64,000 bases of DNA, from positions 1-64,000 of the forward strand of contig JAECRA010000013.1 in the NCBI GenBank assembly GCA_015999985.1, read 5' to 3'. Below the pieces are notes generated by a model. The model was not told the DNA's origin and did not search any database. It worked only from the letters and a program-made list of their open reading frames with translations. The position numbers and the translations under genes were made by a program. The stretch's first letter is position 1. The number at the start of each line of letters is the position of its first letter. Positions 48,824 to 52,894 of this stretch are shown here, one piece after another. This DNA comes from Comamonadaceae bacterium. GTDB taxonomy: Bacteria > Pseudomonadota > Gammaproteobacteria > Burkholderiales > Burkholderiaceae_C.

Positions 48824-49249
48824 GCGTGTCTCCTGTTGAAAATTCGTGAAAGCAACAATTTGAGTGTTCAAACTCTCGTGGTTGCATTCCGAATGTGAGA
48901 TCAGTAGCTGACCCTTTTCTGACAACTTTTCTGACCATTGCATCGAGACTTGCGCAAGCGAGCTCAAACGAGGGATAACCCCAACGGATTTTTTTCTTAT
49001 GTGAAATTTTTGGCAAATAAACGCATGTCGTGTTCGGGTAAGTCCGTAGAAAAAAACTCCTACAACAGGAGCTCTTCCGAGCGCTAAACCCGAACGGCAC
49101 TTAAGCACCTGCGCAAGACTTCGAGGTGTTTGGTATTTGCCTGGCAACGCCAAGATCCAGCTTGGCAAGCTTCTGACCTACATAACCGCCCCAATGCCAA
49201 GCTGGAGCTTGACGCTCCCAGGATAAAACCCTTCTCGCCAGGAACAATG
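48824..49249. other. Intergenic region between the isomerase and MHS transporter genes
   Basis: 426 bp, no gene. It contains the isomerase terminator (49050-49071) and an 11-bp perfect inverted repeat, CCAGCTTGGCA (49157-49167) with TGCCAAGCTGG (49195-49205). The flank GCTGGAGCTTGACGCTCCCAGG is repeat-like. Promoter elements for the transporter must lie nearer 48840-49000. Confidence 0.5.
49050..49071 (-). terminator. Intrinsic terminator downstream of the isomerase gene
   Basis: On the minus strand CTCCT-GTTGT-AGGAG followed by seven T residues; about 180 bp past the isomerase stop codon. Confidence 0.75.
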
Positions 49250-49894
49250 CTATGACCTACGTACGCCCTGCCCTATGAGTTCAGGAGCGCGCCAGGCCTG
49301 ATCCAGCCTTTCGTCCTTCTCCAGGTAAGCCCGCAACATGGGCAATGCATCGAAACCCCAGAACACCCGGCCGTCAACCACCATGCTCGGCACACCGAAT
49401 ATTCCAGCTGAGATGGCAGCTTCCGTCGCCTGCTTCAGCTCTTGCTTGACATCGCTCGCCACAGGATCTCGCTGCGGGGCCAGGCGATCAGTCAATGCCT
49501 TCAACCGCGCGGCATCGTCGGCAATACCCCCTTCAGCCCAGGCATGGCGAAAAATCGTCTCGCATTGAAAGCGGTTGGGCGTCCCCTGGCTTGAACATGC
49601 CAACGCCAGCCGCAGCAGCGCCAGAGAATTGAAAGGGTGGACATCCGGTGCACGCAATTCAATTGAATGCGTGCGTGCCAGCCAATCCACCTGCCTATAG
49701 GTCCACTCACGCTTGCCAGGGATCTCGGCAGGGCCAAGTTGCCCGTGGTGCTTGAGCAGTCCCGCAAACAGGATGGGCCGATACACCACCTCGTAGCTCA
49801 ACCCCTTCAGCGCCCGAGGCATCTGCTCGAACGCCAGGTAGGCGTAAGGGGATATGAAATCCAGGTAGAAGTCGAGGCGTTTAGGGCGTGTCAT
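49250..49894 (-). CDS. 2-hydroxychromene-2-carboxylate isomerase family protein (DsbA-like)
   Basis: Kappa-class GST/DsbA-fold enzyme of the type that isomerises 2-hydroxychromene-2-carboxylate in naphthalene-like degradation and also glutathione adducts. Conserved parts: LDFYLDFISPYAYLA (catalytic Ser in SPYAYLA), KREWTYRQVDWLA, and GVPSMVVDGRVFWGFDALPML. The present start ATG (49894) and codons 2-4 (Thr-Arg-Pro) come from a transposon-like terminal repeat; the native start was probably the ATG at 50152-50154. 214 aa. Downstream of the DUF1289, YbaK and HMG-CoA lyase genes on the same strand. Substrate in this organism unknown. Confidence 0.9.
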   Translation of the reverse strand: MTRPKRLDFYLDFISPYAYLAFEQMPRALKGLSYEVVYRPILFAGLLKHHGQLGPAEIPGKREWTYRQVDWLARTHSIELRAPDVHPFNSLALLRLALACSSQGTPNRFQCETIFRHAWAEGGIADDAARLKALTDRLAPQRDPVASDVKQELKQATEAAISAGIFGVPSMVVDGRVFWGFDALPMLRAYLEKDERLDQAWRAPELIGQGVRRS

Positions 49895-50149
49895 CAATTA
49901 ACCCCCCCACGCGCTGACTCGCCCTGAGGATGGATACGCGAAGGCAGGCGCAGGCCGTAGTGATCTACGGTCAAGACTGCCGACAAAGTAGACGCCGCGG
50001 GGCGAGCCAGCCCGAGGGGTTGCCAAGCCAAGGGGCGGCATGCGTTGTTGTGGCTCGCTTGTGTACAGTAGTACACGGCGCTCGCCACGCCTAGCCTCGC
50101 GCCCCTTGGCTTGGCAACGCGTGGGGGGTTTAATCGATGACACGCCCTA
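49882..50149. mobile_element. TA-flanked MITE-like element inside the isomerase start
   Basis: Body 49884-50147 (264 bp) with TA on both sides (49882-49883, 50148-50149). Its 30-bp terminal inverted repeats begin GGGCGTGTCATC and end CCCCCCACGCG, with two mismatches. Inside are a second inverted repeat (GTTGCCAAGCCAAGGGGCG with its complement, about 50018-50037 and 50099-50118) and two small perfect hairpins (CCGTAG-TGAT-CTACGG at 49955; GTGTAC-AGTA-GTACAC at 50061). No open frame encodes a transposase. Removing the body and one TA rejoins coding sequence as ATGACTAAACGC, so this is an insertion into the isomerase gene. Confidence 0.9.
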
Positions 50150-50150
50150 G

Positions 50151-50384
50151 TCATTTTCCTTTTTCTCTCCGCATTTGGACTCTCTGCCATATGGCCCACT
50201 TCTTAGGGTCTTCCATGGAGCCCCAGCCGACAATCTCGTCCAGACGCCGGAAGCAGCCTTCGCACAAGCCAGTACGTTCTTCAACGCGGCAAGTCCGCAC
50301 GCACGGTGACGGCAGCGGTGTGCAGTTGTCGTAGGCAATCTGTGCTTCGCGCGCCAGGGCGTCGAGATCGCGCACGCCGACCAT
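50151..50384 (-). CDS. DUF1289 family protein
   Basis: Small protein with the family's four cysteines, PCVRTCRVEERTGLCEGCFRR, and a following EIVGWGSM-type tryptophan motif; probably binds a metal or Fe-S cluster. Function unknown. 77 aa. Its TGA stop ends exactly one base before the TA-flanked element; before insertion the stop would have overlapped the isomerase ATG. Upstream is the YbaK gene (44 bp gap). Confidence 0.9.
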   Translation of the reverse strand: MVGVRDLDALAREAQIAYDNCTPLPSPCVRTCRVEERTGLCEGCFRRLDEIVGWGSMEDPKKWAIWQRVQMRREKGK

Positions 50385-50428
50385 TTAGCTACGCACCTGA
50401 GCAACGCAAGCGGACATAAGCGTCACGC

Positions 50429-50923
50429 TCAATTCGCCTCAACCACATCTGCCACGGGTGCGTCAGTCAAACGCTCAAGATCAGCTGGCGCCAACTTGAA
50501 TACGCCGTGGGGATGGCCAGCCGCGGCCCAGATCTCATCAAAGCGATAGAGCTCGCGGTCAATCAACGTGATGGAACGGTCAGCATGCGCCACCGGAGAT
50601 ACGCCGCCGATGGAAAATCCGGTTTTGGCTTTGACGAACTCCGCATCGGCGCGGCCAATCTTGCCGACCAGCGCAGCCACTTTCTTTTCATCCACCCTGC
50701 GGTCACCCGATGTGATCACCAGCACTGCAGCCTCATCTGACTTACGCCTGAAAATGATGCTCTTTGCAATCTGCCCGACCTCGATACCCAGCGCTTGGGC
50801 TGCCTGCGCGGCGGTGCGAGCCGCATCATCAAGCATGACGGGAGCATGGGGATGTCCTGCGGCCGCCAGTGCCTCCGTCACACGCCGAACACCCTCCGGC
50901 AAGTTCTCCAAAACGGTTTCCAT
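50429..50923 (-). CDS. YbaK/EbsC family aminoacyl-tRNA deacylase-like protein
   Basis: 164 aa; the family hydrolyses mischarged tRNAs (e.g. Cys-tRNA-Pro). Characteristic stretches: RTAAQAAQALGIEVGQIAKSIIFR, LVITSGDRRVDEKKVA, the GFSIGGVSPVAHA loop, and YRFDEIWAAAGHPHGVFKL. The lysine of AKSII is the likely catalytic residue. ATG at 50923, 4 bp after the HMG-CoA lyase stop, implies co-transcription. The precise substrate cannot be told from sequence. Confidence 0.92.
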   Translation of the reverse strand: METVLENLPEGVRRVTEALAAAGHPHAPVMLDDAARTAAQAAQALGIEVGQIAKSIIFRRKSDEAAVLVITSGDRRVDEKKVAALVGKIGRADAEFVKAKTGFSIGGVSPVAHADRSITLIDRELYRFDEIWAAAGHPHGVFKLAPADLERLTDAPVADVVEAN

Positions 50924-50927
50924 GACT

Positions 50928-51836
50928 TCACCCGGCTCGTTTGTTCAACATGGCGCTCGCTGCGCGTGAATTGGGCTTGCGCTGCAGGAAATCACTGATG
51001 TAGGCACCAGCGTCCACGAGTTTGTCGAAATCTATGCCCGTGTCAATGTCCATGCCGTGAAGCATGTAAACCACATCCTCGGTGGCTACATTGCCGGTGG
51101 CGCCCTTGGCATAGGGGCATCCGCCAAGGCCAGCGATCGAGGTGTCGTACTGCCACACCCCGATCTCCAGAGAGGCCAGGGTGTTGGCCAATGCCTGCCC
51201 ATAGGTGTCGTGGAAATGGCCGGATATGTCGTCCAGCTCGTAATGCTTCAATGTTTGTTCCACCACACGCTGGACTTTGCGAGGAGTGCCCACGCCAATG
51301 GTATCGGCCACGCCGACGTGCTGCACGCCAATGCCTTTCATCAGCCCTGCCAGGTACCCTACTCGCTCAGGGGCTACATCGCCTTCGTAAGGGCAGCCCA
51401 CAACACAGCTCATTGCACCGCGCACATAAATGCCGTTGGCCCGCGCAGCTTCGACCACCGGAGCGAAGCGTTCGATACTTTCGGCAATCGAGCAATTGAT
51501 ATTTTTTTGGCTGAAGGCTTCACTGGCTGCAGCAAAAACCACTATCTCATCGACACCGGCAGCCAGTGCGCCCTCAAAGCCCTTCATGTTGGGCGTGAGA
51601 ACGCTGTAACGCACCCCTGGCCGACGTTCCATGCCGGCCAGCACTTCTGCCGCGTCGGCCATCTGAGGTACCCACTTCGGACTGACGAAACTGGTGACTT
51701 CGACTTCCTTGAGACCCGCGTCCTGCAGCCGATTCACCAGCCCAATCTTGATGGCGGCGGGCACGGGCTGCTTCTCGTTCTGAAGGCCGTCACGCGGCCC
51801 AACTTCGACAATCTTCACACGCGAGGGAATGGACAT
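50928..51836 (-). CDS. mvaB: Hydroxymethylglutaryl-CoA lyase
   Basis: Final step of leucine breakdown: HMG-CoA to acetoacetate and acetyl-CoA. HMGL/DRE-TIM signatures: VEVGPRDGLQNEKQPVP at the N-terminus, the GHFHDTYGQALAN metal-binding HxH, and the catalytic-loop GLGGCPYAKGATGN with its cysteine. Length 302 aa is standard. First gene of a minus-strand operon with ybaK and DUF1289 genes. The rest of the leucine pathway lies at 55-61 kb. Divergent from the phosphoesterase gene. Confidence 0.97.
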   Translation of the reverse strand: MSIPSRVKIVEVGPRDGLQNEKQPVPAAIKIGLVNRLQDAGLKEVEVTSFVSPKWVPQMADAAEVLAGMERRPGVRYSVLTPNMKGFEGALAAGVDEIVVFAAASEAFSQKNINCSIAESIERFAPVVEAARANGIYVRGAMSCVVGCPYEGDVAPERVGYLAGLMKGIGVQHVGVADTIGVGTPRKVQRVVEQTLKHYELDDISGHFHDTYGQALANTLASLEIGVWQYDTSIAGLGGCPYAKGATGNVATEDVVYMLHGMDIDTGIDFDKLVDAGAYISDFLQRKPNSRAASAMLNKRAG

Positions 51837-52025
51837 GGCAAATCAATGAATGGATTCAACCAGTCAGTGTAGCGGCGTGCGGACAAATTGGAAGTCGCCA
51901 AGTATTCAAGGAACATGCTCATAATCTGCTTGGGTCAGCCCAGATTGATGGGGCATGCCCCCCGTTGATGCTTCTGTGCCGGATCAATAGGTCGTGAATA
52001 CTTTGTCATGACGGTTATCGCTCCA

Positions 52026-52116
52026 TAGGAGGCTGTCGAACTTGGAAATCGCCGGCTCCAAATGGGCCGCAACGGTCCATTTTCGCTATAGGCGCTCCAA
52101 GTCCGACAGCCTCCTA
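52026..52116. mobile_element. Second TA-flanked palindromic mini-element
   Basis: Body 52028-52114 (87 bp) between two TA dinucleotides. 19-bp terminal inverted repeats begin GGAGGCTGTCG and end ACTTGGA, with one mismatch. An inner hairpin pairs AAATGG-CCG with CGG-CCATTT around a CAA loop, so the whole element can fold. It lies 10 bp before the phosphoesterase ATG. Unrelated in sequence to the element at 49882. Non-autonomous element inferred; alternatively an RNA leader structure. Confidence 0.65.
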
Positions 52117-52126
52117 GAAAGCTCCT

Positions 52127-52894
52127 ATGAAGTACGCTCTGCTCGCCGACATTCACGCCAATCGTCACGCGTTGGAAGCTTGTCTAGCCCACGCTGAAAA
52201 ATGCGGCATTGATCGCTATGCGTTCTTAGGCGATCTGGTGGGCTATGGCGCAGAGCCAGGCGCCGTGGTGCAACAAGTGATTGCCTTGCAGGCTCAAGGT
52301 GCGCTCGCTATCAAGGGAAATCACGATCTCTACAGCTCGATCCCCTTGGTGGAAGGCAAGACAGACCTGGGTCATGCCAGTGTGGCCTGGACCCAGGCGC
52401 AACTCTCTCTGGACGAGCGCGTCTTCCTGGCAGCCCTGCCCATGACACATACCGAAAGCACCCTTGTACTGGTGCACGCGAGTGCCGACTGCCCTGAGCG
52501 TTGGCGTTACGTCGAAACGCCCCAAGTGGCCGCGGCCAGCCTGGACGGCGCGGTGCAACCGCCTGTGGGTAACGATAAAGTTCGCCATGTCTTCGGCGGA
52601 CATGTACACGCCCAGACGCTTTTTTTTCGGGGTGGAGCAGGCAAGCTGATGCCCTTTTCACCGACACCGGGCGTTCCCATTCCAGTGCCAGGCCACCGAT
52701 TCTGGCTGGCTACCGTGGGATCCGTCGGGCAACCGCGTGACGGCCGAGCAGATGCGATGTACGCGATCTTCGATGACTCTGCCCAGTTGCTCACGTTTCA
52801 TCGCGTGCCCTATGACGTGCAAGGGGCCATGGCCGCCATCCGATCCACCTCGCTCCCCGCGTTCTTCGCAGACCGACTGGAGTTCGGCAGGTGA
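52127..52894 (+). CDS. Metallophosphoesterase family protein
   Basis: Calcineurin-like phosphoesterase with a complete binuclear metal centre: LLADIHAN (D8, H10), FLGDLVGYG, IKGNHDLY, VHASADCP, and HVFGGHVHAQT. 255 aa. Family members include PrpA-type Ser/Thr protein phosphatases and YfcE-like nucleotidases. The stop overlaps the GTG start of the protein kinase gene (GTGA at 52891), so the two are translated together and this is probably the opposing phosphatase (inference). No clear Shine-Dalgarno because of the upstream palindromic element. Confidence 0.9.
   Translation: MKYALLADIHANRHALEACLAHAEKCGIDRYAFLGDLVGYGAEPGAVVQQVIALQAQGALAIKGNHDLYSSIPLVEGKTDLGHASVAWTQAQLSLDERVFLAALPMTHTESTLVLVHASADCPERWRYVETPQVAAASLDGAVQPPVGNDKVRHVFGGHVHAQTLFFRGGAGKLMPFSPTPGVPIPVPGHRFWLATVGSVGQPRDGRADAMYAIFDDSAQLLTFHRVPYDVQGAMAAIRSTSLPAFFADRLEFGR

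Follow-up and report, generated by a model that had tools for sequence, protein, structure and literature searches.

A 264-bp putative mobile element stands between two genes of the 64,000-nucleotide stretch of contig JAECRA010000013.1 from a Comamonadaceae bacterium (the window, meaning here the whole stretch analyzed). The upstream gene encodes a DUF1289 protein (PF06945; minus strand, 50151-50384) and the downstream gene a DsbA-like isomerase (PF01323; minus strand, 49250-49894), both scoring above the Pfam cutoffs. The explanation we consider probable has three parts: a miniature inverted-repeat transposable element (MITE) inserted between these genes, its terminal repeat came to provide the isomerase start codon, and a leader frame across the element may couple the translation of the two genes.

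Anatomy and origin of the inserted element

On the minus strand, the junction reads GGAAAATGAC, TA, the 264-bp body (50147 to 49884; no strand assigned to the element itself), TA, and AACGCCTC, with the flanking dinucleotides at 50148-50149 and 49882-49883. The body is bounded by 30-bp inverted repeats (49884-49913 on the isomerase side and 50118-50147 on the DUF1289 side) that mismatch at 2 of 30 positions; the ends also scored as a 42-nt arm pair with 86% complementarity. Between the repeats lies a Y-shaped core (49913-50117), which comprises arm A (~49913-50010), a small hinge hairpin (~50011-50018), and arm B (~50019-50117), all with approximate borders. Scripted removal of the body and one TA rejoined the flanks through the remaining TA as GGAAAATGACTAAACGCCTC (longer form, AAGGAAAATGACTAAACGCCTCGAC), such that the TGA of DUF1289, whose stop is retained, overlapped an ATG (50152-50154) as ATGA. 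Under this reconstruction, the predicted empty site with a single TA is GGAAAATGACTAAACGCC. The TA-flanked body with its two-mismatch repeats and the recreated overlap had both been described in an earlier reading of the letters alone (the sequence-only reading); the former was reproduced here base by base and the latter by the scripted join.

Comparison with other loci bore out the insertion event that this reading proposed. Genome-wide mapping placed the element at six dispersed sites in its own genome: the window, three copies of ~172 to 175 bp (C103, C101, and C61), a half copy (C28), and a copy cut by a contig end (C43). A family search matched at least 12 of 399 genomes (own included), with full-length copies of ~267 bp at 69 to 73% identity in five other genera; here and in the order search described below, two candidates were scored per genome, and the counts are lower bounds. 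The dinucleotide following 53 distinct outward ends was TA in 43 cases, TG in 5, TC in 2, CA in 2, and AA in 1. When the joined flanks of a sister copy in G168 were compared with nine loci of the same genus, five of the nine carried a single TA at the junction. The window element is thus short, bears inverted repeats, is flanked by TA on both sides, occurs in six places, and encodes no transposase, as is typical of MITEs; the copies and the one sister empty site suggest that it has been mobile. Judged from these sequences, the element is almost certainly the insertion of a nonautonomous MITE at a TA. One copy in G168 (L071, ~1340-1500) adjoins another long foldback repeat, the arms of which begin GTGTAGTGTTTCGCTC. 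At three loci (L062, L065, and L263), matching changes were observed in both terminal repeats (e.g., GTCCTC paired to GAGGAC), as though either arm were a copy of its partner.

The isomerase protein was matched in 23 of 29 genomes of the genus (own included). An ortholog at an identity of at least ~53% was present in 18 other genomes, 15 of which have DUF1289 directly upstream. The element was absent from all 15 of these syntenic congeners, and 8 of them carry the ATGA overlap. The ATGA-bearing congeners read on as ATG-AAR, giving the reconstructed ancestor one additional codon; for that ancestor, MTKRLDF is plausible as the exact N terminus. The nearest relative, G028, shares 78% protein identity, with a gap of 12 nt. 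At the DNA level, the same 29 genomes yielded the full element from the own genome only, together with matches of 31 to 41 nt in three others. Two congeners carry other sequences at this site: in G013 (L037, ~1246-1512), two copies of ATGAAGCAC at the same junction enclose a different insert of ~250 bp, and this insert matches 77 places in that genome; in G012 (L033), the two genes are separated by a 194-nt gap with inverted repeats of the CGCGAAGG type, possibly another foldback.

The ends of the element point to the IS427 group of the IS5 family as their source, both by sequence and by the TA duplication. The same ends bound an 815-bp IS427-type element in Acinetobacter and a complete insertion sequence (IS) of ~870 bp in G165, a genome of the same bacterial family; the latter has DUF4096 and DDE_Tnp_1 domains, which we take to mark the IS427 group. 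These complete IS provide the autonomous partner expected of a MITE. A similar element with these ends was found on an Acidovorax plasmid, and such ends occurred in Polaromonas among the matches listed. The Acinetobacter transposase had no match in the own genome (~79% complete). No transposase-like frame was found in the 264 bp of the window element, which on this count is not itself a member of the IS427 group. In the available text of the report on ISPssp5 (PMC6514802), that IS427-group element has the same end with a TA direct repeat; the window element shares the terminal repeat GGGCGTGTCATCAATTA and the TA target duplication with this group, but elements of the group measure 800 to 900 bp and encode a two-frame transposase, whereas the 264-bp element encodes none.

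The isomerase start and its possible coupling to DUF1289

Upstream of the isomerase, the reading frame is closed by a TAA (minus strand, 49900-49898), which is followed by a TTG (49895-49897) and an ATG (49892-49894), both within the terminal repeat. The TTG, which is the first start after a stop in the list of open reading frames, is the sole alternative to the ATG. No other ATG, GTG, or TTG occurs in frame before residue 25, and the Met at that residue lies beyond a stretch (YLDFISPYAYLAFE) that is similar in most aligned orthologs. Barring an unusual codon, the isomerase must therefore start within the terminal repeat, an assignment that we regard as very likely; the proposal that the repeat became the source of the start accordingly stands, with the TTG or the ATG as the codon presumably used. 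The protein now reads MTRPKRLDF, its frame is intact over 214 codons, and its Pfam score is far above the cutoff. A run of seven G (minus strand, 49902-49908), resembling a Shine-Dalgarno sequence, precedes the new ATG by 7 nt. Its predicted pairing with an anti-Shine-Dalgarno sequence is -10.2 kcal/mol; of the 2079 ATGs in the window, 0.6% attain this value.

RNA spanning the element (minus strand, 49880-50151) had a predicted folding energy of -169.6 kcal/mol, compared with a mean of -106.4 kcal/mol for shuffled sequences (z = -11.4; 0 of 200 shuffles as stable), in agreement with the earlier description of the 264 bp as foldable. In the longer intact RNA, the region of the new ATG had a predicted unpaired probability of 0.001; when the RNA was folded only from 15 to 60 nt upstream onward, the new ATG was ~0.70 unpaired. 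At the joined, element-free junction, the corresponding value for the old ATG was 0.80. The old ATG retains its own AAGGA and opens an 86-codon frame across the element (minus strand, 49894-50154) that has no Pfam match. The stop of this frame (TGA, 49894-49896) meets the new ATG as TGATG (49896-49892), a stop-start overlap of the kind expected for translational coupling.

We propose that a MITE with IS427-type ends of the IS5 family inserted at a TA just within the isomerase gene, duplicating the TA. Before this event, the isomerase ATG would have overlapped the DUF1289 stop, which survives. Severed from its old start, the isomerase would begin at the outward ATG of the terminal repeat or the TTG preceding it; the G run in the repeat would stand at Shine-Dalgarno distance from this start, and the same repeat would bury it in a long hairpin. 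Ribosomes ending DUF1289 may then enter the old-ATG frame, translate its 86 codons, and melt the hairpin, stopping at TGATG, where the isomerase start would be opened or the ribosome passed on. Reinitiation at ATGA or TGATG is described in the available text of PMC6728339, as is coupling by upstream translation that melts the structure covering the following start. The systems treated there have in common with this locus such overlaps and a start that upstream RNA conceals by long-range pairing; here, in contrast, the leader frame and the hiding hairpin both come from a mobile element, and their function is predicted. On the modeled folds, we give the re-coupling of DUF1289 and the isomerase through the leader frame slightly less than an even chance.

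A second gene of the genus appears to depend on an end of this kind. In G027 (L070), a remnant of the same end starts a DUF1513 protein (PF07433; E = 9.3e-77; MTRPKSRPRRHLLCAGLLAALPASARA), whereas the DUF1513 gene of the congener G019 has a native start (MAHTSRRHILASALL); the G027 gene reads as a second obligate case of start donation. At four more places, the ATG of the end shares its frame with a gene supported by Pfam in which an internal Met is retained as a possible native start: response regulators in C101 and G174 (L003 and L231), an alpha/beta hydrolase in C43 (L006), and a penicillin-binding protein in G129 (L204). A frame of at least 80 codons opened from the start codon of 17 of the 53 ends (one of them a GTG, at L065). 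Ten of the 16 such frames other than the isomerase were run against Pfam, with six matched and four without a match; L060, L065, L067, L212, L225, and L246 fell outside this comparison. The match at L205, which may not be an element end, lies only near the far end of the frame (residues 383 to 501). Only L070 was obligate among the six matches, and a general excess of donated starts was rejected. We dropped the 181-aa frame of L060, which lies opposite a frame that by eye resembles an Lrp-type regulator, and a short frame beside C61 that lies opposite the end of a gene judged SppA-like by eye. The other frames could not serve as a control, since they are closed by the end itself. In C103, the TAG stop of a neighboring frame (L002, 1672-1674), which by eye resembles an acyl-CoA dehydrogenase, combines the target TA with the end's first base.

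Several observations weigh against the proposed history. Only one genome has this particular insertion. Frames that stay open across GC-rich elements are not rare, and among the other full-length copies an open frame up to the end ATG is not a consistent feature, so that the leader frame here may be luck. The sequence-only reading had also named, as an outcome that would refute its proposal, element-free relatives that do not show the exact junction ATGACTAAACGC. This junction was found in 0 of the 15 syntenic congeners, 8 of which have the overlap itself. The force of this result is tempered because the nearest relative is only 78% identical and because ATG-AAR fits a difference of one codon.

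An unlikely but serious alternative is that the insertion mainly harmed expression, leaving the isomerase silent or poorly expressed, with the in-frame ATG an unselected coincidence that had one phase in three in its favor. The almost complete pairing of the new start in the predicted RNA fits such damage, coincidence is made likely by the outward frame that each MITE end of this type opens, and most of the 53 ends run into short frames; yet the isomerase has remained intact over its 214 codons with a high Pfam score, and the DUF1513 gene relies on the same kind of end. Alternatively, transcription might begin within the element, yielding a short RNA without the DUF1289-side arm, in which the start would be free without coupling. 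The predicted opening of the ATG in RNAs beginning 15 to 60 nt upstream suits this idea, but a promoter and terminator scan of 49200-52200, limited to sigma-70-like promoters, found none (0 promoters versus a shuffle mean of 0.9), and we consider internal transcription improbable. The start in the terminal repeat with leader-frame coupling is the explanation that we prefer.

A core probably shared with elements bearing other ends

An order search with the full-length copy L061 matched at least 24 of 399 genomes (own included). For 22 of these 24 genomes, no listed match extended to a query end on either side, and the flanks of those loci contained foldbacks bearing other terminal repeats. The L061 element had no match in the plasmids or phages searched. 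Among 32 loci examined, three had no spanning repeat (L316, L321, and L327) and four had implausible borders and were dropped (L302, L312, L314, and L324). Borders were set for 25 elements, of which 21 measured 266 to 302 bp. For the core alignment, five of the 25 were left out for unusual or intermediate length or as a duplicate type (L306, L309, L323, L325, and L332), and the window, L061, L064, and L065 were added from the window's own family; the orientation of L331 was taken from the family search in preference to a weak later score. The resulting 24 elements, from 11 families of the order, align across the core.

Pairing in the core was kept mostly through two-sided changes. Such changes, with pairing maintained, were seen at 67 of 77 predicted pairs; the signal was scored by five measures, not one of which was equaled in 500 shuffles, and it was lost when the partner was slid. 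In nine close relatives from six genera, two-sided changes were found at 39 of 109 pairs (70 two-sided cells versus 17 one-sided cells, the latter summed from the pair table). The interiors were chosen by similarity, and part of the core conservation is therefore ascertainment. No viral contig searched with the core pattern gave a hit, the GAGCC-type end had only weak matches in plasmids, and Rfam returned only subthreshold microRNA matches for 49300-50700 and nine core-bearing loci.

Target duplications varied with the type of end: TA for the window type, an identical TTA or TAA in L308, L310, L318, L328, and L329, and a 4-bp TTAG in a single element (L311); several copies lacked an exact duplication. 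In Cupriavidus, ends of the f39 type flank a complete element annotated as IS5 family, and in Methylomonas a near match of the GGAACC-type end, with one end found, adjoins a gene for an IS5-family transposase. Target length varies among the subgroups of IS5. Given its occurrence with several end types and duplication lengths, the core seems to be a module on which more than one IS5-type transposase acts.

MITEs are commonly seen as IS that have lost their transposase, according to the available text of PMC5896051, and the window element could be no more than what internal deletion left of one IS427-type IS, its core having no separate history. The ends do match IS427-type elements. Against this origin, the core without these ends is matched in at least 22 further genomes of the order, and it can be aligned among elements from 11 families whose ends are of other types; the duplications measure 2, 3, and once 4 bp, and a different complete IS5-family element is flanked by ends of another type. 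Because the core recurs with other ends, we rejected the single-IS remnant as the whole story and regard it as very unlikely. That the core is common to elements with other ends is quite likely. It is an even call whether this ~200-nt core, present in 11 families or more, is maintained separately as a module with exchangeable ends that passes between transposases, keeps its pairing mainly by two-sided changes, and repeatedly lends a start or stop from its ends to adjoining genes. The two-sided changes would, on that module reading, be those expected if the palindrome were under selection, or repaired from a template, at the DNA level.

Relation to known elements and significance

Small foldbacks that alter or fuse neighboring frames include MITEAba12 (PMC6382973), the enterobacterial RU elements (PMC2759123), QMITEs (PMC5896051), and the Rickettsia palindromic elements (PMC10969869), as far as the available text of these sources goes. 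Start codons near the ends of MITEAba12 were noted there as a possible source of fusions (PMC6382973), and in-frame fusions by MITEs and Rickettsia palindromic elements have been reviewed (PMC10969869). Here, unlike in those cases, the terminal repeat appears to give a conserved gene its only usable start after splitting an overlap, with a G run and TGATG in place. MITEAba12 further differs in its parent, its 9-bp duplications, and its weak predicted structure (PMC6382973). In the open-access literature, within the text available for it, we found no description of this element, of a MITE that rebuilds a gene overlap, or of this core, and the core sequence string was not found there.

The two obligate cases in one genus suggest a route by which the end of a transposon can turn into a gene's working start codon. 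When a gene overlap is the target, both frames can survive the insertion, and the genes are perhaps re-coupled. The core shared among elements with different ends suggests, in addition, that some bacterial MITEs are transposase-switching lineages rather than remnants of single IS.
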